In this document: positions 13,130 to 26,085 of the stretch, one piece after another
Position numbering within the stretch: the stretch's first letter is position 1
How the letters are laid out: the number at the start of each line of letters is the position of its first letter
From: a virus
IMG/VR virus record: IMGVR_UViG_3300021440_000106
Location: 1 to 26,085 of that record
Direction: 5' to 3' (one strand)
Length of the DNA: 26,085 bases
The notes under the pieces: model-generated
Told to the model about the DNA's origin: nothing
Database searches by the model: none
The model's input: the letters and a program-made list of their open reading frames with translations, nothing else
Position numbers and translations under genes: made by a program

Positions 13130-14587
13130 TTATGCTGCAATCAGATACCAGCCATCTGAGATTTGATTGTTTAAGGTATTGTGGCCTTCCCCTTCATTTA
13201 CCGTAAACAAAATCTGCTCCATCGGCGGAACATTGCTTTCATTGGTGAGATTGATGCAGATAATCACATCATCCCCGTGCACGATAATCTGATTGACAAT
13301 CACACGGAGGATGCCGTCCGGGTCATGCTTGACAATGTGTGCAAAGACCGCTGCGAAATGCTCCCGCGTCAGCTTCGGCAGGGCGGGGAGTGCATCCAGA
13401 TTTGCACGGAGCTGCTCTCTGCGGACTTCCAGTACGTTCATCTTATCCTTTAGTGCATCACTAGCAAACCCGTCCAGAATCGCTTGCACGGCGTTCTGCA
13501 ATTGCTTTTCAATGCCGTCCAGTTCCGCCTTGATGACCGGTCGCTCATCCGCAGGCTGCTCCTTGAGATACTGCGCATATGCTGCGTCCGTCAGCTCGTT
13601 CACCTTCTCCGGGCGGAGATACTCCGACAGCGCATTCAAAATGCGAGTATGCAGCGTTTCCGCATCATAACAGGTGCGGTTCGCCTTCTCGCAATGCCGG
13701 CAATAATAATAATGCTTCGTTTTCGCAGTCGAACCGCTCACCATATGCCCGCAGTAACCGCAGACAAGCTTTCCGGTCAGCAGATATTCATAATCCGAAC
13801 GCTCACGCCGACGGTGCGCGGCTGCTTTCAATTTCTCCTGCACGCTCTCAAACAACTCCTTCTCAATCAGCGCGGGAACGGGCATCGGTTCTTCAAACTG
13901 CCCGTAATAGTATTCGCCCATGTAAATGCGATTCTTCAAATGCGTGCTGACGTTCATCGGCTTCCATTGGTTCCGCTTCTGATTCGTCACGCCGAGCCCG
14001 TTCAGCCAGTTCACGATATCCACAATGCGCTCACCGGCATTGTATCGGCGGAAGATATCGGCGGCAATCGGTGCAGTCAATGGATTCGGCACGAGCTTCC
14101 GCGCTTTGATCTGATAGCCGAACGGTGCAATCTTTTTGAGATAATAGCCCTTGTGGAAACTCTCGGCGAGTCCGCGGTTGACCTTCTGCGACAGCTCCGC
14201 ACTGTAAAATTCGTCGATGCCTTCCAGAACCGCTTCCAGCATGATGCCTTCCGGCGTGTCGGTCAGGTGTTCGGTTGCCGAGATCAGGCGCACACCGTTC
14301 TCACGGAGTTTGTGTTTGTAGATTGCGCTGTGATACCGATTCCGCGCAAACCGGTCGAGCTTGTACAGCAGAACGCCTTCAAATATGCCCTTGCTGCTGT
14401 CTGCAATCATCTGCTGAAACTGCGGACGGTTGTCCGATTTGCCGGAGATCGCACGGTCAACATACTGCGCGACGATCTGCAAGCCGTTTTTTGCGGCGTA
14501 GTCCTCGCAGACGTGCAATTGTCCTTCAATGGACTGCTCGCTCTGGTTCGTGGACGAATACCGCCCGTAGAATGCAACTTTTTTCAT
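13130..14587 (-). CDS. int: Large serine recombinase (phage integrase)
   Basis: 485 residues, the usual size. The resolvase-type catalytic domain (1-150) opens KKVAFYGRYSSTNQSEQSIE, with Arg9 and the nucleophile Ser11, and has the LLYKLDRFARNRY motif at 74-85. A recombinase domain follows (about 155-255, APFGYQ and TNQKRNQWKPMNVSTHLKNR). The zinc-ribbon region has Cys276, Cys279, Cys296 and Cys299 or Cys306, and a coiled-coil (about 360-415) precedes the C-terminal tail. It should join attP to a host attB without a supercoiling requirement. The start has AAGGAGGAAA upstream. It faces opposite to late and early genes and ends directly against the late terminator. Confidence 0.95.
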   Translation of the reverse strand: MKKVAFYGRYSSTNQSEQSIEGQLHVCEDYAAKNGLQIVAQYVDRAISGKSDNRPQFQQMIADSSKGIFEGVLLYKLDRFARNRYHSAIYKHKLRENGVRLISATEHLTDTPEGIMLEAVLEGIDEFYSAELSQKVNRGLAESFHKGYYLKKIAPFGYQIKARKLVPNPLTAPIAADIFRRYNAGERIVDIVNWLNGLGVTNQKRNQWKPMNVSTHLKNRIYMGEYYYGQFEEPMPVPALIEKELFESVQEKLKAAAHRRRERSDYEYLLTGKLVCGYCGHMVSGSTAKTKHYYYCRHCEKANRTCYDAETLHTRILNALSEYLRPEKVNELTDAAYAQYLKEQPADERPVIKAELDGIEKQLQNAVQAILDGFASDALKDKMNVLEVRREQLRANLDALPALPKLTREHFAAVFAHIVKHDPDGILRVIVNQIIVHGDDVIICINLTNESNVPPMEQILFTVNEGEGHNTLNNQISDGWYLIAA

Positions 14588-14606
14588 GAAAATTTCCTCC
14601 TTGAAA

Positions 14607-14635
14607 TTGACATTTCGCGGAGAATATGGTATACT
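14607..14635 (+). promoter_or_regulatory. Consensus sigma-A promoter firing rightward from the integrase 5' end
   Basis: TTGACA at 14607-14612, a 17-base spacer and TATACT at 14630-14635. It lies immediately upstream of the integrase start but points the other way. Downstream genes are all on the - strand until 16218, so it has no protein gene to serve; transcripts should stop at the hairpin 14674-14705. Confidence 0.8.
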
Positions 14636-14670
14636 GAAACTGTCGAGGTTTGAGTAGCAATACTCTCCGC
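14617..14670. other. Nested imperfect inverted repeats, candidate attP (or operator)
   Basis: Outer arms GCGGAGAATA (14617-14626) and TACTCTCCGC (14661-14670) match at 9 of 10 positions; inner arms TACTGAAAC (14632-14640) and GTTTGAGTA (14648-14656) match at 8 of 9. The centre is near 14643-14644. A roughly 50-bp imperfect palindrome next to the 5' end of a serine integrase gene is the known form of attP in several such phages. The repeats also overlap the -10 element of the + strand promoter, so a repressor operator is an alternative. Not proven either way. Confidence 0.45.
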
Positions 14671-14716
14671 TTCATCCCGTCCGGTGCGCCAACACCGGGC
14701 GGGATTTATTTATTTA
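14642..14716 (+). ncRNA. Predicted ~75-nt orphan RNA between integrase and HIRAN genes
   Basis: Predicted from the consensus promoter at 14607-14635 and the terminator at 14674-14715. The RNA would contain a small hairpin GAGTA-GCAA-TACTC (14652-14665) with a GNRA-type tetraloop, a short single-stranded linker, and the terminator stem. No ribosome binding site or open frame of useful length lies inside. It is antisense to the 5' leader of a lysogeny-operon mRNA that crosses into the integrase gene. Expression and function are inference. Confidence 0.55.
14674..14715 (+). terminator. Intrinsic terminator of the rightward orphan RNA
   Basis: ATCCCGTCCGGTG (14674-14686) pairs with CACCGGGCGGGAT (14693-14705) with a single G-T pair, 6-base loop, followed by a TTTATTTATTTA tract. 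On the - strand no T-tract follows, so it acts mainly rightward. The tail runs into the stop codon of the HIRAN gene. Confidence 0.75.
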
Positions 14717-15222
14717 CGATAATAAGCGACTTTCATAAACAGCATTCCATTTTCAATATCTATTCCTTGTAATCTTGCTAAAATCACCTGTCCTTTATCC
14801 ATAAAGTCATGCGTCATATCCTGACCTGTACCACGAAAAAGATATCCGAGCCGTTGCTTTCCGTCATAAACTGCAATTGCACGCGAATCATAGCGGTTTG
14901 TGGGTTCTTTCCTGAATTCCAGTTTATCCTTTGTATGCAGCAACGCAAAATTCGGTTCTTTTCCGGAAATGACACAAATTGAAACGTGGTCATAAACTTT
15001 GTATAAACGCTGCCCGTTTTTTAGCCGTTTCGGAAAAACAATGCCGTCATTCGCATTATACGGAGCGTTCATTTTTTTACGTGAAAAAGATTTCAGGCCA
15101 GTTGAGAACAGTTTGACAGCAATCATGATGAGCAGAATCCCAAATACAACACCAACGCCGCCGAGCATTATGAATAACAGTGCGAGTAATATAAAAATAA
15201 CAGCAAACGCTATTTTTTTCAT
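14710..15222 (-). CDS. Membrane-anchored HIRAN-domain protein
   Basis: 170 residues from the ATG at 15222, which has GGAGGTG upstream; a longer reading to 15279 lacks such a site. Two hydrophobic segments (about residues 4-20 and 22-39) form an N-terminal membrane hairpin. A basic linker follows (FSRKKMN). Residues about 80-155 resemble the HIRAN domain: HVSICVISGKEPNFALL, then the hallmark EFRKEPTNRYDSRAIAVYDG and RLGYLFRG. HIRAN domains bind DNA ends in helicase-like factors. A membrane anchor with a lysogeny-operon position between repressor and integrase suggests a lysogenic conversion or superinfection exclusion role, which is inference. Confidence 0.75.
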   Translation of the reverse strand: MKKIAFAVIFILLALLFIMLGGVGVVFGILLIMIAVKLFSTGLKSFSRKKMNAPYNANDGIVFPKRLKNGQRLYKVYDHVSICVISGKEPNFALLHTKDKLEFRKEPTNRYDSRAIAVYDGKQRLGYLFRGTGQDMTHDFMDKGQVILARLQGIDIENGMLFMKVAYYRK

Positions 15223-15952
15223 ACACTGAACACCTCCTATTCTGCCAATTCCGCAATGCCGATAACAAGCCCGACGCACCGCGCCTCTCCCTCGATGTCC
15301 GGGTACTCCGGATTGCGGAAATCAGACATTTCTTTCCGCGCTCCTTGATGTAGCCCTTGCCGTCGTGTACAAAAAGCCCGACTTTGCCGACCTGCACATC
15401 CGTGTCACACTTGACAAGCACGATGTCACCATCATGGAAATCCGGCTCCATGCTGTCTCCGTCCACTTCGACTGCGAAATCTGCCGCACGCGCTGCATCG
15501 GTTCCGACAACACTGATTTCCGTCCATTCGTCCTCGCTTGACAGATCATAGCCAAAGCCTGCCGCCGCTTTGTTCAGGTGCTTCCGCATCTGGATGGAGG
15601 GGCGGCTTTGCTGCATTGCGGCTCTGCGGGCTTTCATTGCCTTGATGAGTGCGAGCACGATTGCCTGTAAATCTTCCGGCAAGGAATTGAATTGCTCCTC
15701 AAGCTCCTGCGGGCTGAGAACCGTTTGCGACATCAGAAGCTGAATCGGGTCGGTCTGCGGAGCGCGGCCGAGCAGAAAGTCAGCAGTCACGTTATAGAAG
15801 TCGGCGATTTGGCATAAACCGTCCGTACTGACATCACGTTCATTTCGCTCGTATTTTGCATACGTATTTGCATTCATCTGCAATGCTTCCGCAGTCTGTG
15901 CAATTGTAAGATTCCGGTTCGTCCGTAATTCTTTCAGACGTTCACCTATCAT
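15077..15952 (-). CDS. CI/LexA-like repressor, C-terminus frameshifted near 15313
   Basis: The prophage repressor. Residues 5-62 are an HTH_3/Xre domain (GERLKELRTNRNLTIAQTAE). Residues about 140-213 are a peptidase S24 domain with Ser167 (VDGDSMEPDF) and Lys203 (GYIKERGKK), the autocleavage pair. After residue 213 the frame as written runs into a basic, Cys/Arg-rich tail to 15077, overlapping the HIRAN gene by 146 bp. In the neighbouring frame the sequence from 15311 continues exactly like the family, PEYPDIEGEARCVGLVIGIA, and stops at 15237, just in front of the HIRAN start. One missing base (AA instead of AAA around 15313-15314) explains this. The original product would be about 238 residues. 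Start ATG lies behind AAAGGGGG. Confidence 0.85.
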   Translation of the reverse strand: MIGERLKELRTNRNLTIAQTAEALQMNANTYAKYERNERDVSTDGLCQIADFYNVTADFLLGRAPQTDPIQLLMSQTVLSPQELEEQFNSLPEDLQAIVLALIKAMKARRAAMQQSRPSIQMRKHLNKAAAGFGYDLSSEDEWTEISVVGTDAARAADFAVEVDGDSMEPDFHDGDIVLVKCDTDVQVGKVGLFVHDGKGYIKERGKKCLISAIRSTRTSRERRGASGLLSALRNWQNRRCSVYEKNSVCCYFYITRTVIHNARRRWCCIWDSAHHDCCQTVLNWPEIFFT

Positions 15953-15978
15953 ATAAACACCCCCTTTTGGATATCTCT

Positions 15979-16008
15979 ATTATAACCCGTTTTGTACTAT
16001 TATGTCAA
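15979..16008 (-). promoter_or_regulatory. Leftward repressor/lysogeny promoter
   Basis: On the - strand, TTGACA (16008 to 16003), 18-base spacer, TATAAT (15984 to 15979). The start point would be near 15972, giving a leader of about 20 bases before the repressor ATG. Operator O1 lies inside the spacer next to the -10 box, so the promoter should be autoregulated. Confidence 0.9.
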
Positions 16009-16159
16009 GACATTATCATGTGAAATTTTGAAATCCTCCCCGATTTGTACCTTGTGTACAAAAAATGCAAGTACGATTTGTGCATAATTTTATTGAAAAA
16101 CCGCTTGACAAAAGTACAGAACGGGTGTATAATCATATCACGGCCGGTACAAAACGTAC
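15985..16159. promoter_or_regulatory. Five-copy operator array, consensus GTAC-N5-GTAC
   Basis: Five 13-bp sites share half-sites GTAC/GTAC with a 5-base spacer: O1 15985-15997 (GTACAAAACGGGT, - strand), O2 16047-16059 (GTACCTTGTGTAC), O3 16071-16083 (GTACGATTTGTGC), O4 16114-16126 (GTACAGAACGGGT), O5 16147-16159 (GTACAAAACGTAC). O2 and O5 are perfect. O1 and O4 share 13 of 14 bases with their flank and abut the -10 box of the leftward and rightward promoter respectively. They are the likely binding sites of the repressor, and perhaps of a Cro-like counterpart. The rest of the 265-bp divergent region holds the two promoters and the early leader only. Confidence 0.85.
16105..16133 (+). promoter_or_regulatory. 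Rightward early promoter
   Basis: TTGACA at 16105-16110, exact 17-base spacer, TATAAT at 16128-16133: a perfect sigma-A consensus. Transcription would begin near 16140, leaving a leader of about 78 bases to the first early gene. Operator O4 fills the spacer and O5 covers roughly +7 to +19, so repressor binding would block it. Confidence 0.95.
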
Positions 16160-16217
16160 TTGACTGATAAAGATTTCGTCTCCAGCTATATGGGAAAATG
16201 AAAGCGAGGTGAATCAC

Positions 16218-16382
16218 ATGAAGAATGAAAACACCGAGATCCGCCGCACAACGTCCGGACTGCTGCCCGAAGACCTGGCATTCATCAACGGCATTGTGCA
16301 GATGCTCGCGGCGATGTACTGCCGTCTGCATCCCATCGCTCCGGCACCGAACAACGAAACGAAAAAGGAGGAATCAGCGTGA
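16218..16382 (+). CDS. Small first early protein (54 aa), unknown
   Basis: Starts MKNENTEIRRTTSGLLPEDL after GAGGTG at 16206-16211, seven bases before the ATG. The middle is a short hydrophobic helix (AFINGIVQMLAAMYCRL) and the end is charged (NNETKKEESA). No helix-turn-helix was recognised, so it is not an obvious Cro. It is the first gene under the rightward promoter, where phages often have cro or small regulators. The stop overlaps the GTG start of the antirepressor (GTGA), and its last codons contain that gene's Shine-Dalgarno sequence, so translation is probably coupled. Confidence 0.7.
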   Translation: MKNENTEIRRTTSGLLPEDLAFINGIVQMLAAMYCRLHPIAPAPNNETKKEESA

Positions 16383-17128
16383 ATGAATTGAAAACATGGA
16401 CTTTCAGCGGCTCGGAAGTCCGCACCGTTGAGGTGAACGGTGAGCCGTGGTGGGTGCTGAAAGATGTCTGCACCGTGCTAGAAATTAAGAATCACAAGGA
16501 AGTGCCCGACAGACTGGAACCGGATGAGGTGGGTAGATTTGATGTACCCCACCCGCAGAATCCCGCAAAACCGCTTGAAATGGTATTCATCAACGAATCC
16601 GGTCTGTACAGCGTCATTCTCCGCAGCGACAAGCCGCAGGCAAGACCCTTTCGCCGCTGGGTGACGGGTGAAGTCCTGCCGTGCATCCGCAAAACGGGCG
16701 GCTATTCCGTGCGGAAACCAGTCTCGGACGTTCAGCTCCGGAAACTCGAAGTGCAGGAACGGAACGCCAAAACAAGAGCCGCACAGCTTCTGCTGAAAAT
16801 GACCAATGTTGAAACGCTTTCGCAGGAGTACAAAAATATTCTCGTTGCAAAAGCGGCTGAGGTGCTGACCGGCGTTCCCGTTCTCCCGCCGCAGGAATCG
16901 GCGCAGAAGATGTACAGTGCAAAGGAAATCGGCGAAATGTTCGGCGTTTCGGCACAGAGAATCGGCAAGCTCTCCAATGCTTACGGGCTGAAAAACGACG
17001 AATACGGGCAGTGGTACCGCGACAAATCGCCGTATTCCAGCAAGGAAGTCGATTCGTTCCGCTACAATGACGCGGCAGTCGAACGATTCCGTGAAATTCT
17101 GGAAGGGGAAACGGACAATGAAGAATGA
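16379..17128 (+). CDS. Phage antirepressor: BRO-N domain plus C-terminal DNA-binding domain
   Basis: 249 residues from a GTG start with GGAGG seven bases upstream (16367-16371). Residues 5-105 are a BRO-N domain: VRTVEVNGEPWWVLKDVC, then the FINESGLYSVILRSDKPQAR motif and FRRWVTGEVLPCIRKTGGY. A Lys/Arg/Gln helical linker (118-165) follows. Residues 178-245 contain a winged-helix-like segment (MYSAKEIGEMFGVSAQRIGK) similar to KilA-C/ANT-type domains of antirepressors. Such proteins bind or displace the repressor, or act as DNA-binding regulators, during the switch to lytic growth. Position directly under the early promoter fits. Confidence 0.88.
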   Translation: MNELKTWTFSGSEVRTVEVNGEPWWVLKDVCTVLEIKNHKEVPDRLEPDEVGRFDVPHPQNPAKPLEMVFINESGLYSVILRSDKPQARPFRRWVTGEVLPCIRKTGGYSVRKPVSDVQLRKLEVQERNAKTRAAQLLLKMTNVETLSQEYKNILVAKAAEVLTGVPVLPPQESAQKMYSAKEIGEMFGVSAQRIGKLSNAYGLKNDEYGQWYRDKSPYSSKEVDSFRYNDAAVERFREILEGETDNEE

Positions 17129-17264
17129 GATCAATGTCACCGTAACCGAACAGCCCGGCGAAATCGGGCAGGAAACTGCAAAAGCCCTGTGCAGCCTGAT
17201 TCTGCACTATTACGCGGAACACAAAGAGGAAATCGACAAGGACAAGGAGCAGAAACATGATTGA
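17118..17264 (+). CDS. Small early protein (48 aa), unknown
   Basis: Reads MKNEINVTVTEQPGEIGQET then a helix (AKALCSLILHYYAEHKEEID) and a Lys/Glu-rich end. GGAAGGGGAAA at 17101-17111 precedes the ATG, which overlaps the end of the antirepressor by eleven bases; a longer in-frame reading from 17067 has no site. Its own stop overlaps the next start by eight bases. The opening MKNE is shared with the first early gene, probably from the similar start context. No family recognised. Confidence 0.65.
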   Translation: MKNEINVTVTEQPGEIGQETAKALCSLILHYYAEHKEEIDKDKEQKHD

Positions 17265-17493
17265 AATTAAGGTAAAGGAAAACAGCGTCTATCAGCGCAT
17301 TTCCGGCAGCCCGGACACAGTGCTGACGGAAACGGCAATGATGGTATGCGCTATTGTACGGAATGCCGTGCGTACGCTGCGTGAAAACGGTATTCAGGAT
17401 GACGAAGTCCAGAAACTGCACACCGGCATCAATCTCATGATGCTTGACGCAATCGGCAAGGGTGTTGAGATGGGGGAGGAGGAATTTGCATGA
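17257..17493 (+). CDS. Small early protein (78 aa), unknown
   Basis: Begins MIEIKVKENSVYQRISGSPD, then two helical stretches (TETAMMVCAIVRNAVRTLRE, VQKLHTGINLMMLDAIGKGV) and an acidic end (EMGEEEFA). The predicted strand-then-helices layout is that of small phage accessory proteins seen in early regions, without a named family that I recognise. AAGGAG (17244-17249) precedes the ATG. Its stop overlaps the next start (ATGA), showing tight coupling in the early operon. Confidence 0.65.
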   Translation: MIEIKVKENSVYQRISGSPDTVLTETAMMVCAIVRNAVRTLRENGIQDDEVQKLHTGINLMMLDAIGKGVEMGEEEFA

Positions 17494-17732
17494 TTGACGT
17501 AAAGTACGGCATTGAACCGTGTGACATTTTGCAGATCCCGGTGTATGCTTCATTCTGCACAGAAGACGGCATTGCTGTGGACAAGCTGATGTTCCGTAAT
17601 TCCGGCATCATCATTCTGCGCTATGTCGGCGATGACGGCAAGTCACACGATATCCTTGTGACCGTGCCTGCTGTGTTTTGCGACGGGATGAATTACTATG
17701 ATGCTGACACGAAGGAGTGGGCGTATGCGTGA
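17490..17732 (+). CDS. Small early protein (80 aa), unknown
   Basis: Reads MIDVKYGIEPCDILQIPVYA, then SGIIILRYVGDDGKSHDILV and ends YYDADTKEWAYA. Mostly alternating beta pattern with no membrane helix. GGGGGAGGAGG upstream (around 17472-17481) and the four-base overlap with the preceding stop define the start. No recognised family and no catalytic signature. Confidence 0.6.
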   Translation: MIDVKYGIEPCDILQIPVYASFCTEDGIAVDKLMFRNSGIIILRYVGDDGKSHDILVTVPAVFCDGMNYYDADTKEWAYA

Positions 17733-18042
17733 TACACTGGAATTTATCTGCGGCGCGGTCACTCTTGGCGTTGTGATCGGCATAATCATTACCGCGTATC
17801 ACAGAGCTATGCACCGGATGTACCGGAAAATTGCGCGGGAATGGGCGGACGAGATGTTCCGCAAGTACGTGCGGAACTGCGAATACCGCGTGCATACGAC
17901 CGTCCGCACAACGATAACTGTGGAAGGAAGTGACGCATATGCTCGAAACGGATTGCATCATTTCGCATCATGTACCGATACCGCACCGCGAATTCTACGC
18001 ACTGCACGGGGACGCGCTGTCGGTCAAAACTTTGATGGATGA
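17725..18042 (+). CDS. Small membrane-anchored early protein, long overlap with next gene
   Basis: 105 residues from the ATG at 17725 behind AAGGAG (17712-17717). One transmembrane segment near the N-terminus (FICGAVTLGVVIGIIITAY, residues 7-25) is followed by a basic amphipathic region (HRAMHRMYRKIAREWADEMF). The last third, after TVEGSDA, looks like non-coding composition and overlaps the next gene by 104 bases. A TGA at 17931-17933, right at the next gene's ribosome binding site, is in another frame and would give a normal-sized ending if one base were restored upstream. A frameshift is therefore possible. Function unknown. Confidence 0.55.
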   Translation: MRDTLEFICGAVTLGVVIGIIITAYHRAMHRMYRKIAREWADEMFRKYVRNCEYRVHTTVRTTITVEGSDAYARNGLHHFASCTDTAPRILRTARGRAVGQNFDG

Positions 18043-18595
18043 CGGACTGAGCGAGTTTGCTATCAGACGCAAGCTGCATATCGGTGAAGAAGCATACCGT
18101 GATGCAGTCTACGAAATCAATAAGCAGAATGCCGTCACAGAACGGAATCAATATTTCAAAAAGGAGAATGAAACAATGCCAAGAGGAGAAAAACTGAACA
18201 CGGAAACCGTTGAACGTATCCGCGAACTGAAAGCCGACGGGAAAACCGCCAAGGAAATCGCCGAAGAAGTCGGATGCGGAAATTCAACTGTCAGGCGCAT
18301 CTGTCAGCGCGGAAAAACACAGATCAACAAGGAATTTGACGCGGCGGTCAATCAGATGATTGAGGAGAGCAAAAACGAGGACACAAAAAAGGACACTTTG
18401 GACACAAAATCGGACACTCCGAACGTGCCGGATGCGGTCATGACGGCAGTCGTTGAACGTATCAATGCACTGTCGAAAACGCTCTCTGATAATATGCTGA
18501 CAATCAAGAAAATGCAGCAGGATAATGAAAATCTGCGGTCGGAGCTGGCGGTGCTCTACGGATGGAGGGCAGAGCATGAAGGCACTGAAAATTGA
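17939..18595 (+). CDS. Helix-turn-helix early regulator with coiled coil, nested start at 18176
   Basis: 218 residues from the ATG at 17939 (GGAAGGAAG upstream). The first 78 residues hold a possible HTH (VKTLMDDGLSEFAIRRKLHI). The second part has a clear HTH of the resolvase/Trp-repressor type (VERIRELKADGKTAKEIAEE, then VGCGNSTVRRICQRGK, residues 91-126). A charged Lys/Asp/Thr linker (DTKKDTLDTKSDTPN) leads to a coiled coil (about 165-205). An in-frame ATG at 18176 follows AAGGAG (18161-18166) by nine bases and would yield a 139-residue protein starting MPRGEKLNTET with only the second HTH. Either two products are made or two genes are fused. Confidence 0.7.
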   Translation: MLETDCIISHHVPIPHREFYALHGDALSVKTLMDDGLSEFAIRRKLHIGEEAYRDAVYEINKQNAVTERNQYFKKENETMPRGEKLNTETVERIRELKADGKTAKEIAEEVGCGNSTVRRICQRGKTQINKEFDAAVNQMIEESKNEDTKKDTLDTKSDTPNVPDAVMTAVVERINALSKTLSDNMLTIKKMQQDNENLRSELAVLYGWRAEHEGTEN

Positions 18596-18899
18596 AAACC
18601 GCAAGGTCACGCTGACTGACATTGCGAACGGTACGCCGGACGAGGAACTGCACGCTTTGCAGACGGCAATCGGCGGATACATCGAAACGGTTACGCTGGC
18701 AGAAGATGCGGTCATGATCGTGGACGAGGAAGGGCTGCTGAAAGCCCTGAATCAGAACGCGCTTGCGTCATTGGTCGCCCGTCAGCAGATCGTCGGGACG
18801 GCAGTCATTGTGGGGCTGGATGTCAATGCGGACGGTGAGCGTGTATTCTGCGACTGCCCGGAGCGTTATGTGAAGAATCTGCTGATGCTTGGGAGATGA
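18576..18899 (+). CDS. DUF3846 domain protein
   Basis: 107 residues from the ATG at 18576, which follows GGAGG in the end of the preceding gene (20-base overlap). The protein matches the DUF3846 pattern over nearly its whole length: LHALQTAIGGYIETVTLAED, AVMIVDEEGLLKALNQNALA, and a closing IVGTAVIVGLD. DUF3846 is common in plasmids and phages of Firmicutes and has no established biochemical role. It is the last gene before the 86-base gap at 18900-18985, which contains the predicted antisense RNA. Confidence 0.8.
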   Translation: MKALKIENRKVTLTDIANGTPDEELHALQTAIGGYIETVTLAEDAVMIVDEEGLLKALNQNALASLVARQQIVGTAVIVGLDVNADGERVFCDCPERYVKNLLMLGR

Positions 18900-18935
18900 A
18901 AAATGCCGCATCCGAATGGCGGTTCGGACACGGCA
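18899..18935 (-). terminator. Intrinsic terminator on the - strand after the DUF3846 gene
   Basis: Read on the - strand, TGCCG-TG-TCCGAA (18935 to 18923) pairs with TTCGGA-TG-CGGCA (18916 to 18904), a stem of 6 plus 5 pairs with a symmetric 2x2 internal loop and a 6-base apical loop, followed by TTTTT (18903 to 18899). On the + strand no T-run follows, so it is directed leftward. Confidence 0.85.
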
Positions 18936-18951
18936 CAGAGGAATATTTGCT
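18899..18951 (-). ncRNA. Predicted ~50-nt orphan antisense RNA
   Basis: Predicted on the - strand from the perfect promoter at 18958-18986 and the terminator at 18899-18935. After a 16-base 5' segment (AGCAAATATTCCTCTG) the RNA is essentially its terminator hairpin. It is complementary to the early mRNA between the DUF3846 gene and the next gene, including a GAGGAA ribosome-binding-like site at 18938-18943. No open frame of use lies inside. Expression and role are inference. Confidence 0.6.
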
Positions 18952-18996
18952 ATGTGCATTATAGCACAGAAACGAGGTTTTGTCAATGGGGCATGA
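18952..18996 (+). CDS. Possible 14-codon leader peptide
   Basis: ATG at 18952 reads MCIIAQKRGFVNGA and stops at 18994-18996, overlapping the start of the next gene (18986). GAGGAA at 18938-18943 stands eight bases before it. The spacing and overlap would allow translational coupling. It is very short and overlaps the antisense promoter, so it may be accidental. Confidence 0.3.
   Translation: MCIIAQKRGFVNGA
18958..18986 (-). promoter_or_regulatory. Perfect consensus promoter facing left, against the early operon
   Basis: On the - strand, TTGACA (18986 to 18981), exactly 17 bases, TATAAT (18963 to 18958). Transcription would begin near 18951. The -35 hexamer overlaps the ATG (18986-18988) of the next + strand gene. 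No - strand gene follows; the only downstream signal is a terminator about 50 bases on. Confidence 0.9.
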
Positions 18997-20293
18997 ATAT
19001 ATCATCGGAGAGATCATCTGGGATGATGATGAGCCGGAATTGTTCGGCGAACGGCTGCATTTTGATGACATGAAAACCATCAGAGAAGGGGAACTGCTTT
19101 TGATGGATGAAGATGCAGTCAATGAACCGTATGGCGGAACGGTTGTTGCGTTTGAATCCGCGGATGATGTGTGCGCAACTTTTCGCGGCGGCATCTTCGG
19201 CATCAGCAGCAAACGGTATACCGTCAGCCGAAAAGACATGGAAGATGAGGAAAGTGCCAATTTTACAATGGTATGGCGTACAAATCAGAAGGAGGAAACA
19301 GAAATGATTGTCACGGAAAACAGAACCCCGCCCGCGGATGAAAGTCTCGCGGTGACGGAGCAGTACACGACCGCCTACAATCTCAATGTGAAGATTCACA
19401 CGAGTATGCAGGCAATTCAGCAGAACCTTTACGATATGTGCAGTGCGCTCAAACAGATGCGTGACGGCAAGCTGTACAAGGAACTCGGTTATCAGAATTT
19501 TGAGGAATACTGCGAGAATGGTGCTGGGATCGGTCGCCGTCACGCATACAGATTCATTACGATTCTCGAAACGCTCCCGCCGGATTTTGTGACATCAATG
19601 TCACAAATTGGAATGACCAAGCTGACACTTCTCACCGCCCTGACTGACGACCAGCGCGGAGAGCTCACCCAGACCGTTGACCTCGAAAGCACCACCGTCC
19701 GCGAACTGAAAGCGCAGATCGCCGCCTTGCAGTCCCAGAACGCGGACACCGAAAAGGCGCGGCAGGATGCCGAAGAACGGGCGCAGAAGTGGTATGATGA
19801 GGCGGAAAGCAAAGGGCGGCAGTTGACGGAAAACCATGCAAAACTGGTCAAATCCGAAGAACGAAACGGCAGATTGCAGGAACAGATTGAAGAACTTGAA
19901 AGCCGCCCTGTGGAAGTCGCCGTGCCGGAGCCGTCGCATGAATTGCAGAATATGCAGGATGCAATGCGTCGGATCAATCTGGAGCATGAGCAATGGTCAG
20001 CAAAAATTCAGGATGACCACATCAGACACGTTCAGGAGATCAACCGGCAGCACCGCGCCGAGACCGATGCCCTGCGCGCGGAGTATGAGGAAAAGCTTGC
20101 AGCGGCGCAGGCAGCACCCGCCGAAGCACCGGACAGCAAGGCGGTATTCAAGGTGTATCTTGCGGCGGTGATTGATGCGGCAAAGCGCATGATGGCATTC
20201 CTTTCCGCGCATCCGGATGATGCTTGCAGAGCGCAGGCAGAAAAGGCATTTCAGACCATGTTACAGGAGGTAAACAATGAGCAGGCTGTTTGA
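18986..20293 (+). CDS. DUF3102-like coiled-coil protein with N-terminal extension, nested start at 19304
   Basis: 435 residues from the ATG at 18986 (GAGG at 18974-18977). Residues 1-106 form a separate acidic domain (GHEYIIGEIIWDDDEPELFG, later FRGGIFGISSKRYTVSRKD) of no known family. From residue 107 (ATG 19304, with a perfect AAGGAGG eight bases upstream) the protein resembles DUF3102/ParB-associated phage proteins: VKIHTSMQAIQQNLYDMCSA, LGYQNFEEYCENGAGIGRRH, AYRFITILETL. Residues about 240-375 are a long coiled coil, then a short helical domain. Two separately translated polypeptides, or a fusion, are both possible. It opens the replication/recombination block; the role is unknown. Confidence 0.7.
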   Translation: MGHEYIIGEIIWDDDEPELFGERLHFDDMKTIREGELLLMDEDAVNEPYGGTVVAFESADDVCATFRGGIFGISSKRYTVSRKDMEDEESANFTMVWRTNQKEETEMIVTENRTPPADESLAVTEQYTTAYNLNVKIHTSMQAIQQNLYDMCSALKQMRDGKLYKELGYQNFEEYCENGAGIGRRHAYRFITILETLPPDFVTSMSQIGMTKLTLLTALTDDQRGELTQTVDLESTTVRELKAQIAALQSQNADTEKARQDAEERAQKWYDEAESKGRQLTENHAKLVKSEERNGRLQEQIEELESRPVEVAVPEPSHELQNMQDAMRRINLEHEQWSAKIQDDHIRHVQEINRQHRAETDALRAEYEEKLAAAQAAPAEAPDSKAVFKVYLAAVIDAAKRMMAFLSAHPDDACRAQAEKAFQTMLQEVNNEQAV

Positions 20294-20816
20294 GATTTCA
20301 AATGATTTCGCCGCGCTGTTCGATCAGCTCGAAGCGTTTGACGAGATCGAAGATGATACACAGCGCGAAATCGTGCAGGAAGCGTGGTTCGACACGCTGA
20401 CCGGCATCGAGGAGGAATTCGAGATCAAGGCGGAGAATGTCGCACAGTTTATCAAGTCGCTGAAAGCCGAAGCGGAGGACATCCGCGAGGAAGAAAAGGT
20501 GCTTGCGGCGAGAAGAAAGTCAAAGGAAAAACGTGCAGAATCGTTGATTCGCTATCTCATGGGATGCATGAAACAGATTCGCCGTGAGAAGATCGAGACT
20601 GCAAAATGCAAGCTGTCAATCCGGAAGAACGCAGAGAGTGTGCAGTGTCCCGATGAAGACCGGCTCGCCCGTGATCTGCTGGCGATGGGACGCACGGAAT
20701 TGATTCGCGTCAAGCCGCCGGAGCTGGACAAGACCGCGCTGAAAAAGGCACTTCAGTCCGGCGAGATCATCAACGGCGCAGCACTCGGTCGCACGGAATC
20801 TTTGATTATAAAGTGA
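20277..20816 (+). CDS. Siphovirus Gp157 family protein
   Basis: 179 residues; ATG after AGGAGGTAA and overlapping the previous stop by 17 bases. The pattern is that of Gp157: an N-terminal acidic helix (FDQLEAFDEIEDDTQREIVQ), FDTLTGIEEEFEIKAENVAQ, then a long charged helix (LKAEAEDIREEEKVLAARRK), and a C-terminal CKLSIRKNAESVQ strand with KPPELDKTALKKALQSGE and the final GAALGRTESLIIK. Gp157 proteins are common next to phage recombination and replication genes and have been linked to phage resistance in Streptococcus thermophilus. The mechanism is not established. Neighbours here are an ATPase and a helicase. Confidence 0.9.
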   Translation: MSRLFEISNDFAALFDQLEAFDEIEDDTQREIVQEAWFDTLTGIEEEFEIKAENVAQFIKSLKAEAEDIREEEKVLAARRKSKEKRAESLIRYLMGCMKQIRREKIETAKCKLSIRKNAESVQCPDEDRLARDLLAMGRTELIRVKPPELDKTALKKALQSGEIINGAALGRTESLIIK

Positions 20817-20825
20817 GGTGAAAAT

Positions 20826-21602
20826 ATGGGTTTACCGGTTTTGATTCTTGGTTATTCCGGCAGCGGAAAGTCAGCATCTATGCGGAATTTCGGTGCAAAT
20901 GAAATCGCATTGGTCAACGTATGCGGAAAAGCACTGCCGTTCCGCACACAGTTTCAGACGGTGCTTTGTTCCGACCAGTACGCCGACATTGACCGCTTTT
21001 TGCATACCGTCAAAGAAAAAATCATCGTCATTGATGACTGCCAATATCTGATGGCGAATGAATTTATGCGCCGTGCAAAGGAAAAAGGGTACGATAAATT
21101 CACGGATATCGGGCAGAATTTCTGGTCACTTGTTCACTCAGTTTTTGCATTGCAAAATGACGTAACTGTGTACTTTTTATCGCATATTGACACGGACGAG
21201 AACGGGCGGCAGAAAATCAAAACAATCGGCAAGCTGCTCGATGAAAAAATCACCGTTGAGGGGATGTTTACAACCGTTTTGAAAACTGTTGTGATGGACG
21301 GGCGGTATTTGTTCGCAACGCAGACAGACGGGCGTGACACCTGCAAATCGCCGATGGGAATGTTTCCGGAAATGTACATCGAAAATGACCTGAAAGCGGT
21401 TGATTCTGCCATCCGGAATTATTATTTTGTTCCGGCTGAAAACTGCGGACAATGCGGGAATATCATCACATCCGCAGCAAATAAAACGGCATCGGAAATC
21501 GCAGAAGGTACGCTGAAAACATACGGCAGAAAGCTGTGTTTTGCGTGCGCGTGCAAGGCGATGAAACAGCGGAAGGAGGCGGCAAATGCCGGAACTTCGT
21601 GA
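20826..21602 (+). CDS. P-loop ATPase (AAA_24 / Sak4-like) with C-terminal zinc site
   Basis: 258 residues. Walker A is GYSGSGKS (residues 9-16), Walker B is IIVIDDCQYL (66-75), and a VTVYFLSHID strand follows (113-122) as in RecA-like phage ATPases. Family members are predicted single-strand annealing or recombination motors (Sak4-like) in the same position between Gp157 and SSB-like genes. The extra C-terminal region has CGQC (207-210) and CFACACK (238-244), a likely zinc-binding site from two Cys pairs, not general to the family. GAGGTG precedes the ATG. It overlaps the helicase gene by 17 bases. Substrate specificity cannot be read from sequence. Confidence 0.8.
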   Translation: MGLPVLILGYSGSGKSASMRNFGANEIALVNVCGKALPFRTQFQTVLCSDQYADIDRFLHTVKEKIIVIDDCQYLMANEFMRRAKEKGYDKFTDIGQNFWSLVHSVFALQNDVTVYFLSHIDTDENGRQKIKTIGKLLDEKITVEGMFTTVLKTVVMDGRYLFATQTDGRDTCKSPMGMFPEMYIENDLKAVDSAIRNYYFVPAENCGQCGNIITSAANKTASEIAEGTLKTYGRKLCFACACKAMKQRKEAANAGTS

Positions 21603-22926
21603 CTATCAAATCCGGTTGATTGACGGTGTTGCACGGTCGTGGCGGACGGGGCATCATGCGCCCTGTATCGTCCTTCCGTGCGGCGGCGGAAAGTCGGTGA
21701 TTGTTGCGGAAATGGCAAAACGGACTGCCGGAAACGGGCGGTATGTGCTGTTCATTGTGCATCGGAAGGAACTGTGTGAACAGATCATCCGCACGTTTCT
21801 CTGGTGGGGCGTTGATATGCAGTTTGTACGGGTAATGATGGTTCAGACGGCGTGCAATCGGCTGCACAAAATCCCCGTACCTGCGTTAATTATCACCGAT
21901 GAAAACCACCACAGCAAAGCATCATCATACCGAAAAATTTACGATTATTTCTCCGGTGCATACCGTGTCGGCGTGACGGCAACACCGGTCAGACTGGACG
22001 GAACCGGCTTGAAAGATGTCAATGATGATCTTGTGATTGGCGTATCGGCAAAATGGCTGATTGAACATCACAATCTTGCGCCGTATGATTATTATGCGCC
22101 CGCCATTGCCGACCTTTCAACGGTCAAGGTTCACCGCGGAGAATTTGATGCAAAGAGTGCAGAAAAAATCATGCTCGAATCCAAGGTCTACGGCGATGTG
22201 ATCTCCTATTACCGCAAATTCGCGGACGGCTTGCAGGCGGTCTGTTACTGCACAACGGTGAAGCATTCGCAGACGATGGCAGCGCAGTTCAATGCAGCGG
22301 GAATTGATGCGGCACACATTGACGGACAAATGAAAAAGGCAGAACGTGCGGAAATTGTAGAGAAATTCCGGCGCGGCGCGATTGACGTTTTATGCAATGT
22401 AGACCTCATTTCCGAGGGGTTTGACGTGCCGGATTGTTCCTGTGTTATCATGCTGCGCCCGACGCAATCGCTGACATTATTTATCCAGCAATCCATGCGC
22501 TGTATGCGGTATCGGGCGGGAAAACGTGCGGTCATTCTTGACCATGTCGGGAACTATGCACGGCACGGAATGCCGGATGATGACCGCGAATGGACACTCG
22601 AAGGACGCAGAAAACGCGCCGGAAATACGGTACAGAATCCGGAGGAAGAACCGTATACGACTTGCACAAAATGTTATGCCGTGATTTCCGGAAAGGTGCA
22701 GATTTGCCCGTATTGCGGCGCGGAAATTGAACGGAAAAACCGGAATGAAATTGCGCAGGATGCAAATATCGGACTGCAAAAAATCACCGGCTTCACCGTC
22801 AACACCAAAACGCCGAATGAGTGCCGGACGTATGCGGAATTGCTCGAATATGCGAAAATGATGGGGTACAAACCGGGATGGGCGTATTTTCAGGCAAAAC
22901 AAAGGGGGCTGCTGCATGGAACATGA
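21586..22926 (+). CDS. SF2 DEAD/DEAH-type helicase with zinc ribbon
   Basis: 446 residues. Motif I is LPCGGGKS (30-37), motif II is DENH in place of DEAH (105-108), motif III is TATP (131-134). The second RecA lobe has VCYCTTVKHSQTM (219-231), motif V NVDLISEGFDVP (271-282) and motif VI QQSMRCMR (301-308). A zinc ribbon with Cys360, Cys363, Cys374 and Cys377 and a C-terminal helical tail follow. This is the usual size and build of the phage UvsW/ComF-like helicases in Firmicute replication modules. GGAGG at 21575-21579 precedes the ATG. It probably remodels forks or recombination intermediates with the neighbouring ATPase and nuclease. Confidence 0.92.
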   Translation: MPELRDYQIRLIDGVARSWRTGHHAPCIVLPCGGGKSVIVAEMAKRTAGNGRYVLFIVHRKELCEQIIRTFLWWGVDMQFVRVMMVQTACNRLHKIPVPALIITDENHHSKASSYRKIYDYFSGAYRVGVTATPVRLDGTGLKDVNDDLVIGVSAKWLIEHHNLAPYDYYAPAIADLSTVKVHRGEFDAKSAEKIMLESKVYGDVISYYRKFADGLQAVCYCTTVKHSQTMAAQFNAAGIDAAHIDGQMKKAERAEIVEKFRRGAIDVLCNVDLISEGFDVPDCSCVIMLRPTQSLTLFIQQSMRCMRYRAGKRAVILDHVGNYARHGMPDDDREWTLEGRRKRAGNTVQNPEEEPYTTCTKCYAVISGKVQICPYCGAEIERKNRNEIAQDANIGLQKITGFTVNTKTPNECRTYAELLEYAKMMGYKPGWAYFQAKQRGLLHGT

Positions 22927-23224
22927 CATCCAGAATGCAATCCGCGCCGCGCTCGCCCCCTATGCGGTCATATTCCGCGCCAATGTCGGGCGCATGAAAA
23001 CGCCGGACGGACGGTATTTTTCAACCGGTCTGCCAGTCGGGTTCTCTGACCTGTTCGGCGTGCGGAAATCGGACGGAAAAGCGGTATTCATCGAGGTCAA
23101 AACGGCATCCGGAAGGGTGTCACAATTTCAGTACAATTTTCTGGAGATGATGCGCAAAAACGGCGCAATTGCTGGAATTGCGCGTTCTCCGGAACAAGCA
23201 ATCAAACTGATAACGGAGGGTTAA
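22916..23224 (+). CDS. VRR-NUC domain nuclease
   Basis: 102 residues, the whole of which is a VRR-NUC (PD-(D/E)XK-type) domain. The active-site line is visible: GFSDLFG with Asp45, VFIEVK with Glu60 and Lys62, then Gln70 in RVSQFQYNFL; the N-terminal helix has the usual EHDIQNAIRAALAP. Stand-alone VRR-NUC proteins in phages are predicted Holliday-junction or structure-specific nucleases. It overlaps the helicase gene by 11 bases and is followed three bases later by the SSB-like gene, which supports a role in recombination-linked replication. Confidence 0.92.
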   Translation: MEHDIQNAIRAALAPYAVIFRANVGRMKTPDGRYFSTGLPVGFSDLFGVRKSDGKAVFIEVKTASGRVSQFQYNFLEMMRKNGAIAGIARSPEQAIKLITEG

Positions 23225-23227
23225 ATT

Positions 23228-23962
23228 ATGGGATTCGGTACAAATTACGATGACATTCCGCAGGGCGGAAACGAGCTGGTTCCGGAGGGAGATTACGAGT
23301 GCATCATCGTGAATGCGGAAATCCGCAAGACGCAGAACGGCAAATACAAGGTTGCGTTCTCGCTGGTCATTCGCAACGATGTCGAGCAGGCGTGCAAGAA
23401 CCGCTATTTGTTTGTGGATGTGTGGCGCAAGCGGGAACCGTCACCGTCAGACGAGCAGGTCGAGGGCTTCAACTTCGCACAGCTCATGGCGGTCAGCCGG
23501 GCGGCGCAGATCCCGAGCGGGCAGAGCTTTGATTCGCTGGAACAGTTTCTGAAATGCATGGTGGGCCGGCTTGTGATTGCACACGCAACACACGATGATT
23601 ACAACGACAAGTGGTTTGTGCGCTGTGATCCGCTCGACCTGATGCCGACGCAGTATCCGGAATGCCGTCACGTCATGAAGGAAAAGCGGCAGGCAGCGCA
23701 GAATCCGGCATACAGCGCGCCGCGTCAGAATCAGGCATTTGCACAGCCGCACGCACCGTCACCGTATGCGCGGACAACAGATGCGCTCGGCACACCGTAC
23801 CGTCCGCCGCGCAAGGCATCCGCACCGGCTCCGGTTCAGCCGCCTGCCGGCCCGCTCTGGACGCCGCAGCAGGCACCCGCTGCGAATGCACCTGCGCCGC
23901 CGAGCATCGGCAGTCTGAGCGAGTTTGAAGATATTTTGCAGGACGGCGAGCTCCCGTTCTGA
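23228..23962 (+). CDS. DUF669 protein with SSB-like tail (putative phage ssDNA-binding protein)
   Basis: 244 residues; GGAGG (23215-23219) eight bases before the ATG. Residues 1-145 show the DUF669 pattern (GFGTNYDDIPQGGNELVPEG, then DYECIIVNAEIRKTQNGKYK). A low-complexity Pro/Ala/Gln linker (about 155-225) follows. The end is acidic and hydrophobic, SEFEDILQDGELPF. OB-like core, disordered linker and acidic tip with terminal Pro-Phe is the architecture of bacterial SSB, whose tip recruits partner proteins. With ATPase, helicase, nuclease and primase around it, a single-strand-binding role is likely; that is inference. Confidence 0.8.
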   Translation: MGFGTNYDDIPQGGNELVPEGDYECIIVNAEIRKTQNGKYKVAFSLVIRNDVEQACKNRYLFVDVWRKREPSPSDEQVEGFNFAQLMAVSRAAQIPSGQSFDSLEQFLKCMVGRLVIAHATHDDYNDKWFVRCDPLDLMPTQYPECRHVMKEKRQAAQNPAYSAPRQNQAFAQPHAPSPYARTTDALGTPYRPPRKASAPAPVQPPAGPLWTPQQAPAANAPAPPSIGSLSEFEDILQDGELPF

Positions 23963-23972
23963 GCAGATTGGT

Positions 23973-23996
23973 GAGGGCGTGAGTGTTCGCGCCCTC
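23973..23996 (+). repeat. Hairpin between the SSB-like and primase genes
   Basis: GAGGGCG (23973-23979) pairs perfectly with CGCCCTC (23990-23996), 10-base loop. No T-tract follows, so it is not a typical terminator. It lies in the 53-base gap before the primase and may stabilise or attenuate the mRNA. Confidence 0.45.
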
Positions 23997-24021
23997 GCAT
24001 AAACAGAGAGGAGTGATGTGC

Positions 24022-26085
24022 GTGTATGAACTGATACCCGATGAACTGAAAGCCTTGCCGCGCTGGGTTTGCTGGCGGGCTGTTCCCGATCCGAAATCGC
24101 ACTCCGGCATATCAAAACAGCCGGTCAACCCGCGTACCGGCGGCATGGCAAAGTCCAACGATGCATCCACATGGACAGATTTTGATACCGCCGTTTCTGC
24201 ATCTGTCGATTATGCAGGCATCGGCTTCATGTTCAGGGATTCGGGCTATATCGCAATCGACATTGACGACAGGCCCGAAGAGCTTGCCGCGTACCGGAAC
24301 GGAGAACGGGACAACATTTTCGGGCAGATGCATGATGCGCTGCAAACCTACGCGGAGCTCAGCCAATCCGGGAACGGCGTGCATTTCATCGGGCGCGGCA
24401 CATTGCCTGACAAGGACTTCAACAACCGGGACATGGGCGTTGAAATGTACACCGGCGCAAGGTTTTTTGTAATGACCGGAAATCTTTGCTCCGAGTACAC
24501 TGACATTGAAAATATCACCGAAACCGTGAAGCCGTTTTATGAAACATACCGGACAAATACCAAAAATAAACCCAGAAATGCACCGGAACAGCTGCCGCTT
24601 TTATCCGGAAATTGTACCGCAAATGAAGTCATTGAACGTGCTTCAAAATCGCGTCAGGGCGCAAAGTTTTCTGCGTTATATTCCGGCGACATTTCCGGCT
24701 ATGAATCGCAGAGTGAAGCGGATATGGCGTTCTGCAATATGCTTGCATTCTGGTGTCAGGGCGACATTGTTCTGATGGATGAAATTTTCCGGAAAAGCGG
24801 ATTGATGCGCGAAAAATGGGACAGAAAACAGTCCGGCACGACTTACGGCGCGATCACACTGCAGAAGGCTGTTGACAGCGTGACAGCCGGTTATTCCGTC
24901 CGCCCTCCGAAATCAGAGGGCGGTGATTACAGCATCACCATCAAGAAAACAAACCAGCATATACCGGCAGGCGTACATGGGAAAATGTATTCCTTTGACG
25001 ATACCGGCAATGCACAGCGCATGATTGACCTGTTCGGCGAGACGCTGCGATTCTGCTATACAGACCGGACATGGATGTATTATGCGGACGGCAAATGGTT
25101 CTTTGACAAGACCGGATATATCCGGCAGCTGGCAGACAGCGCGACCGAAGCGCAGGCGGATGAACGCATCCTGTTTGCGCATGATGAGGATTTGCTGAAA
25201 GCATTTGACCGGCATCTGAAGAAGTCGCGGAGCTTTCAGGGAAAGAGCAATATGATACGCGAGGCGGAGCATTATGTTCCGATCATGCCGCAGTCGCTCG
25301 ACCGGAATCATGCCGTGATCGGCGTGAAAAACGGCATCATTGACCTGAAGACCGGTCAGCTTTACCCGCACGACAGAGAAGCGTTCATTACAAAGCAATG
25401 CCCAGTCGCGTATCATCCGGACGCGCCCTTCCCCCAATTGTGGGTGCAGTTTCTGAGCGACATTTTTGACGGTGACAAGTATATGATCGACTACATTCAG
25501 AAGTGCATCGGCTATTCGCTTTCCGGATCGACGGCGGAGCAGTGTGCATTCTTTCTGTACGGCACGGGCAGAAACGGCAAATCGACATTTCTGGAAATCG
25601 TGCGCTGGATTCTTGGCGACTATGCAACGAATATCCAGCCGCAGACGATCATGGTCAACCCGAAATCCGGCAATGCACCGTCCTCGGATATCGCACGGCT
25701 CAAAGGTGCACGGCTGGTGACCTCGGTTGAACCGAATGAAGGAATGCGGCTCGATGAGGGACTATTGAAGCAACTGACCGGCGACGATACCGTGACGGCG
25801 CGAAAAATGTACTCGGACGAGTTTGAATTCAAGCCCGAGTTCAAGCTGTGGATGGCGATGAACTATAAGCCGTTCATCCGCGGCACGGATACCGGCATCT
25901 GGAGACGCATCCATCTGATCCCGTTTGAGGTGCAGATTCCGCCGGAAAAGGTGGACAAGCACCTGAAGCACAAGCTTGCAAAGGAAGCGGAAAGCATTCT
26001 CTGCTGGGCGGTGCAGGGCTGTCTCCGATGGCAGCGGGAAGGGCTGACAATGCCGAAACGCGTACAAGATGCCGTGCGTGATTAT
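24022..26085 (+). CDS. Primase-polymerase / SF3 helicase (P4-type), 3' partial
   Basis: At least 688 residues; the frame runs off the right edge. The GTG at 24022 has AGGAG (24009-24013) eight bases upstream and gives YELIPDELKALPRWVCWR, a typical family start; an ATG at 24016 in frame is only two bases from that site. The N-terminal domain is prim-pol-like, with YIAIDIDDR (metal-binding acidic pair), SGNGVHFIG and GARFFVMTGN. A D5/P4-type helicase region follows: Walker A GTGRNGKST at 25561-25587, motif B around KGARLVTSVEPNEG (from 25702), and FKLWMAMNYKP (25840-25872). It should prime and unwind phage DNA as one polypeptide and is the main replication protein of the window. Confidence 0.92.
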   Translation, partial: MYELIPDELKALPRWVCWRAVPDPKSHSGISKQPVNPRTGGMAKSNDASTWTDFDTAVSASVDYAGIGFMFRDSGYIAIDIDDRPEELAAYRNGERDNIFGQMHDALQTYAELSQSGNGVHFIGRGTLPDKDFNNRDMGVEMYTGARFFVMTGNLCSEYTDIENITETVKPFYETYRTNTKNKPRNAPEQLPLLSGNCTANEVIERASKSRQGAKFSALYSGDISGYESQSEADMAFCNMLAFWCQGDIVLMDEIFRKSGLMREKWDRKQSGTTYGAITLQKAVDSVTAGYSVRPPKSEGGDYSITIKKTNQHIPAGVHGKMYSFDDTGNAQRMIDLFGETLRFCYTDRTWMYYADGKWFFDKTGYIRQLADSATEAQADERILFAHDEDLLKAFDRHLKKSRSFQGKSNMIREAEHYVPIMPQSLDRNHAVIGVKNGIIDLKTGQLYPHDREAFITKQCPVAYHPDAPFPQLWVQFLSDIFDGDKYMIDYIQKCIGYSLSGSTAEQCAFFLYGTGRNGKSTFLEIVRWILGDYATNIQPQTIMVNPKSGNAPSSDIARLKGARLVTSVEPNEGMRLDEGLLKQLTGDDTVTARKMYSDEFEFKPEFKLWMAMNYKPFIRGTDTGIWRRIHLIPFEVQIPPEKVDKHLKHKLAKEAESILCWAVQGCLRWQREGLTMPKRVQDAVRDY

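Follow-up and report, generated by a model that had tools for sequence, protein, structure and literature searches.

The locus examined here raises the question of what a short leftward transcription unit does between two rightward early genes of a gut-bacterium virus. The window, which is the whole 26,085-nucleotide stretch analyzed (IMG/VR record IMGVR_UViG_3300021440_000106, positions 1 to 26,085), carries on its minus strand, at 18986-18898, a sigma-70-type promoter, a leader, a 14-pair hairpin, and a T-run in series. The complement of the -35 hexamer TTGACA (18981-18986) overlaps the start codon of the downstream early gene, and the extended -10 element TGC-TATAAT lies at 18958-18966, with TATAAT itself at 18963-18958. 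This promoter matches the consensus at 12 of 12 positions, with a 17-base spacer and a TGn motif ahead of the -10 box, and is one of three 12/12 promoters within positions 14000 to 26085. The distance from the -10 box to the hairpin is 21 bases (a leader of ~20 nt), rather than the 23 counted in a sequence-only reading of this DNA. The terminator hairpin, P2 (18936-18903), reads GTGCCGTGTCCGAA-CCGCCA-TTCGGATGCGGCAT, has G-C at 7 of its 14 pairs, and is built on a conserved base, GCCGURUCC/GGAUGCGGC. It is followed by TTTT (18899-18902), or by five T residues if the last stem base is counted, which abuts the stop codon of the upstream gene. The other anatomical claims of that reading held: our sequence scan recovered the leftward TTGACA-17-TATAAT promoter and the hairpin with its T-tract, and the stop (18897-18899) and start (18986-18988) codons enclose a gap of 86 bases, which the unit fills exactly. 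An RNA of only ~50 nt had been expected, and the self-contained unit would yield a predicted RNA of ~54 nt (18898-18951, minus strand); we infer both of its ends, the 5' end from promoter spacing. The predicted RNA folds with a minimum free energy of -22.3 kcal/mol (z -5.3), and none of 200 shuffled sequences folded equally well.

The upstream gene (18576-18899, plus strand) encodes a DUF3846 protein (PF12957), and an HTH protein is encoded at 17930-18595. Downstream, the ATG at 18986 (MGHEYII...) opens one or more early genes extending to 20293 on the plus strand, in frame with a phrog_15609-like protein from 19304. A 12/12 rightward early promoter is located at 16105-16133, and its transcript would run over the unit. 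The predicted small RNA takes in the intercistronic leader and the upstream gene's stop codon but does not reach the ribosome-binding site of the next gene, GAGG (18974-18977, plus strand), which lies within the promoter spacer. The plus strand of the gap also contains a GAGGAA sequence (18938-18943); in the window RNA, the unpaired 5' part has the sequence UUCCUCU, a complement of Shine-Dalgarno sequences.

That consensus signals at both ends are unlikely to arise by chance, as had been argued from the sequence, was borne out by a joint scan requiring a promoter of at least 10/12, a hairpin, and a T-run, all within 95 nt. The scan of the whole window returned two units, 18898-18986 on the minus strand and 14607-14713 on the plus strand, and none was found in 30 dinucleotide shuffles. 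The second unit has a TTGACA-17-TATACT promoter and a 13-pair hairpin (TTTATTTATTT) and points away from a serine integrase gene (13130-14587, minus strand); units like it are found ahead of related integrases in L082, L083, and L038. Beside the integrase gene, the second unit is overlapped by an inverted repeat, GCGGAGAATAT...ATACTCTCCGC (14617-14670), which is a candidate attP, and a symmetric element resembling it is also present in L038, L082, and L083.

No Rfam family matched at its gathering score, none was credible at the unit (18700-19200) at an E value of up to 10, and none matched the corresponding units in relatives. The weak snoRNA matches in the window were rejected, as they are located away from the unit. 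An 801-base query of annotated phage records gave no relative, and no description of such a unit was found in open-licence papers. This phage small-RNA gene belongs to a family not found in Rfam.

Relatives were fetched with both neighboring proteins and, additionally, with a PcfK-like protein; since the first set was obtained via the neighboring proteins, it was not selected by the RNA. An antisense promoter and then a hairpin lie near the start of a gene in each of the 14 loci retrieved with the downstream protein. Scanned mechanically under strict criteria, these 94 kb gave 10 antisense units and no sense units, and five shuffled sets gave none; L010, L012, L017, and L019 fall outside the T-run or bulge limits of the scan and were recovered by the model or by eye. 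The unit is absent from three viral_contigs loci of the PcfK search (L029, L031, and L032). In L030 (position 1471, minus strand), an antisense promoter, TTGACT-TATAAT, followed by a hairpin and a T-run, lies upstream of a PcfK-like gene and has no sequence resemblance to the unit. TTGAC is kept in all 34 aligned members. Comparison of the gap across relatives, which the sequence-only reading had proposed, thus found the promoter, stem, and T-run kept, with compensatory change in the stem. We are highly confident that the unit is a conserved transcription unit with a predicted transcript.

The hosts could be placed as well. A DNA pattern scan of genome contigs produced matches in metagenome-assembled genomes (MAGs) of uncultured Ruminococcus and Oscillospiraceae, several of them from rumen or omasum samples; a match in a Paracoccaceae MAG (L046) was rejected as a chance occurrence of the pattern. 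Matches to a covariance model (R1) likewise came from Ruminococcus and Oscillospiraceae MAGs, in prophage-like settings, and one MAG (G002) carries three strong copies on three contigs. With this model, the unit was detected in 11 of 30 genomes of one genus under looser scoring and, under stricter filters, in 4 of 298 and 9 of 394 genomes in wider, overlapping family and order samples, so that these rates are not directly comparable.

Neighboring genes are replaced on either side, while the unit itself remains nearly constant. About nine unrelated families occur downstream: MGHEYII in the window, MDDIEKRK (L004 and L036), PcfK-like proteins (L008 and others), SbcC/RecF-like AAA ATPases (L045 and L071), an HTH/sigma-r4-like protein (L033), RNAP-alpha-CTD/DUF3102-like proteins (L070, L014, and L017), and unknowns (L052, L066, and L073). 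These are diverse proteins of replication/recombination type or of no assigned function, and the module that follows the unit encodes PcfJ, Gp157, AAA, helicase, and VRR-NUC proteins. The upstream gene encodes DUF3846, MLEIKANG, or other small proteins. The unit sits between a stop and a start codon, with the -35 box on or beside the start of the next gene.

The RNA structure is conserved on the transcribed strand. Among 33 distinct members, double compensatory changes were observed at 12 of 13 stem pairs, and 94.6% of stem cells are paired, compared to 35-46% when the partner is slid; the stem alignment was fitted to the covariance model, and these figures therefore lean towards the structure. 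A G·U pair is swapped to U·G in L064, and L071 has a different upper-stem sequence that still pairs. The conserved stem base contains a U·G beside a G·U. On the minus strand there are 57 G·U and only 2 A·C cells, and the wobbles become A·C mismatches on the plus strand, which identifies the minus strand as the folded one; it is also the better fold in 30 of the 33 members. An antisense or trans-acting RNA, which had been proposed from the sequence alone, is thus supported by a conserved, self-contained unit with stem covariation.

On balance, we put about even weight on the unit being an OOP-like regulator of the early operon, acting through antisense RNA and convergent transcription, by analogy with phage lambda. 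A leftward promoter that looks constitutive, overlapping the first codon of the gene that opens the replication/recombination module, would fire against the rightward early transcript and produce a short, tightly folded, self-terminated RNA. The early mRNA contains, in its intercistronic leader, the complement of this RNA; the two may pair, and pairing together with convergent transcription would lower expression of the downstream module. RNA dose would rise with phage copy number, and the unit could in this way brake early gene expression and replication. In the subgroup made up of the window, L003, L004, and L036, the RNA could in addition mask the Shine-Dalgarno site of a leader open reading frame, a plausible local repression. 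That site, GAGGAA, and the 14-amino-acid frame behind it (MCIIAQKRGFVNGA*, 18952-18996) together occupy 18938-18996 on the plus strand, and the frame overlaps the next start codon. Within this subgroup the frame is 13 to 14 amino acids long and is kept despite different Shine-Dalgarno sequences (AGAGGAA, AGGGAAA, and AAGGTGA); it is absent from L002 and most relatives. The claim that the RNA is complementary to a GAGGAA site accordingly stood for the subgroup and fell for most relatives, which lack GAGGAA, and pairing with GAGGAA was rejected as a general mechanism.

The sequence of the stem bears on whether the RNA acts where it is made. The nine-pair stem base is nearly invariant, which exceeds the needs of a purely cis-acting antisense RNA; it would also fit a trans-acting or protein-binding role or a recent exchange of the cassette. 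One possibility, which we rate clearly below the convergent brake, is that the folded RNA, with its conserved stem base, binds a partner elsewhere, either an mRNA or a protein of host or phage, and that the intergenic slot is merely convenient. Constancy of the stem while both neighbors change would be expected of such an RNA, and the unpaired UUCCUCU of the window could serve it. In two relatives (L011:1231-1320 and L013:1195-1281), moreover, the promoter-hairpin unit lies inside the N-terminal coding region of a gene, so that an antisense RNA gene overlaps a protein gene. In this overlap 25 of 28 third positions are identical, compared to 83 of 113 elsewhere, which is weak evidence taken alone, and no third-position difference falls in the hexamers or the hairpin. 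Conservation does not extend to the unpaired 5' seed, however: most close members fold a second 5' hairpin there, abutting P2 (ACAGACA/UGUUUGU, GUAAGUA/UGCUUGC, or GUAGACA/UGUUUGC), which is absent or weak in the subgroup of the window, and the loop varies as well. A trans-acting RNA also needs neither a promoter tied to the next start codon nor a terminator tied to, or near, the previous stop.

The RNA might instead be dispensable, with convergent collision alone mattering and the terminator only shielding the upstream gene from leftward polymerase. In distant members, where the RNA sequence differs, the promoter hexamers and their spacing are the most constant feature, and an active lambda pO lowers pR transcription (PMC3985674). 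Covariation of the stem and one-sided retention of G·U pairs exceed what a generic terminator needs, however, and the second 5' hairpin is likewise conserved in most close members; we regard interference without a functional RNA as doubtful.

A palindrome centered on the -10 box, TGTGC-TATAAT-GCACA (18953-18968), raises a further alternative. Its arms differ between phages (TGTGC/GCACA in the window; GTGCTA/TAGCAC, TATGCT/AGCATA, or GCTGT/ACAGC in relatives), and they form at least 5 Watson-Crick pairs in 11 of 14 distinct sequences, whereas 2,000 shuffles of the 3' flank gave 0.5 such sequences on average and never more than 4. Because the small RNA starts inside the 3' arm, the palindrome is a candidate either for an operator or for a hairpin of the plus-strand mRNA. 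We favor an operator, since the sequence differs between phages while its place stays the same; the palindrome would then point to switching of the promoter by a DNA-binding protein. The window contains only one perfect copy, and with no second one an operator of the phage's own CI was rejected; matches with one or two mismatches are not above chance and do not lie at the cI or cro promoters. Near the divergent cI and early promoters, TTGTAC-N5-GTACAA (16045-16061) and GTACAAAACGTAC (~16147-16159) resemble repressor operators and differ from the palindrome. The CI-like repressor itself (HTH plus S24) seems to leave its frame near its end (15230-15350, minus strand), the expected end (...PEYPDIEGEARCVGLVIGIAELAE) being read by eye in another frame; a frameshift or a sequencing error is possible.

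Were the conserved element a leader structure of the rightward early mRNA and the minus-strand promoter incidental, the palindrome would fold into a hairpin immediately ahead of the ribosome-binding site, in keeping with its Watson-Crick covariation, and the leader frame kept with its Shine-Dalgarno site in the window's subgroup would find a role. Yet it is on the minus strand that the main stem is stable; in the plus strand, A·C mismatches interrupt it. The persistence of TTGACA-17-TATAAT and of the T-run would be left unexplained. TTGACA is also kept where the ATG does not overlap the -35 box (L066, L067, L068, and L012) and is therefore not just start-codon context. This explanation is very improbable. 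Least probable of all, by a little, is that a short RNA made by host RNA polymerase primes phage DNA synthesis at a single-strand initiation site: the position at the entrance of the replication module and the combination of promoter and hairpins would suit it, but the same idea has been dropped for lambda OOP (PMC3985674, PMC12197685), no clear iteron-like cluster adjoins the unit, and a terminator with a T-run favors release.

Dozens of related viruses carry the RNA unit at this one position, so that it probably has a regulatory role where their DNA-replication genes begin. It is conceivable, if rather improbable as a whole, that it represents an RNA cassette, widespread among Oscillospirales phages and hitherto undescribed, that marks where the replication module begins, outlasts replacement of the flanking genes, carries its own operator over the -10 box, and acts as a copy-number-sensed brake. 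Variation of its loop and operator would then give each phage its own specificity, amounting to a second, RNA-based immunity between coresident prophages. Why the unit persists when neighboring genes are swapped becomes a testable question.

Among known systems, hok/mok/sok is an antisense control system with a toxin. It resembles the window's subgroup in that an RNA is complementary to the Shine-Dalgarno sequence of a short leader frame overlapping the next start, and differs in that no toxin lies downstream of the unit and the leader frame is missing from most relatives; a sok-like type I toxin-antitoxin system was rejected, as no small hydrophobic toxin is encoded on the sense strand. Copy-number RNAs of the CopA/RNAI type have a strong promoter and a short, folded antisense RNA whose dose is proportional to copy number. 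The unit would match them in these respects and has, as they do, variable loops on conserved stems; unlike them, it covers no rep leader known to be regulated and shows no sign of loop-loop pairing. In the temperate phage P22, the small antisense RNA sar lies between two codirectional early genes, as the unit does. P22 sar regulates the antirepressor gene ant (PMC12197685), whereas no ant-like gene adjoins the unit.

The closest likeness is to lambda pO-oop-tO, which makes a short leftward RNA (OOP, 77 nt) from its own promoter to its own terminator. Like the unit, it is convergent to the rightward early operon, sits between regulatory and replication genes, and has a promoter that extends over the beginning of the first replication gene. 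In lambda this gene is O, and replication suffers when pO is lost (PMC3985674). OOP is present at a low level in a repressed prophage and increases ~40-fold after induction, linked to replication; together with its template it inhibits replication in trans, and this phenotype is lost when the RNA between the -10 box and the terminator is scrambled with transcription continuing (PMC3349717). By analogy, this precedent would point to replication-linked expression, against the lysogeny-stage activity proposed earlier for the unit. OOP overlaps 52 nt of the cII coding end, while the window RNA ends at the stop codon of a DUF3846 gene; the unit further differs in having no cII, no sequence or Rfam match, and a variable palindrome over its -10 box. 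The conclusion stands that the unit most likely works like OOP and, with neither an Rfam match nor a cII overlap, is not an OOP homologue. Antisense RNAs in early operons have already been worked out for lambda and P22; the unit described here is a counterpart from rumen phages of Ruminococcus/Oscillospiraceae, for which covariation, hosts, and dozens of natural variants are now available. This suggests a recurrent design in which a convergent small RNA is placed where the replication module begins.
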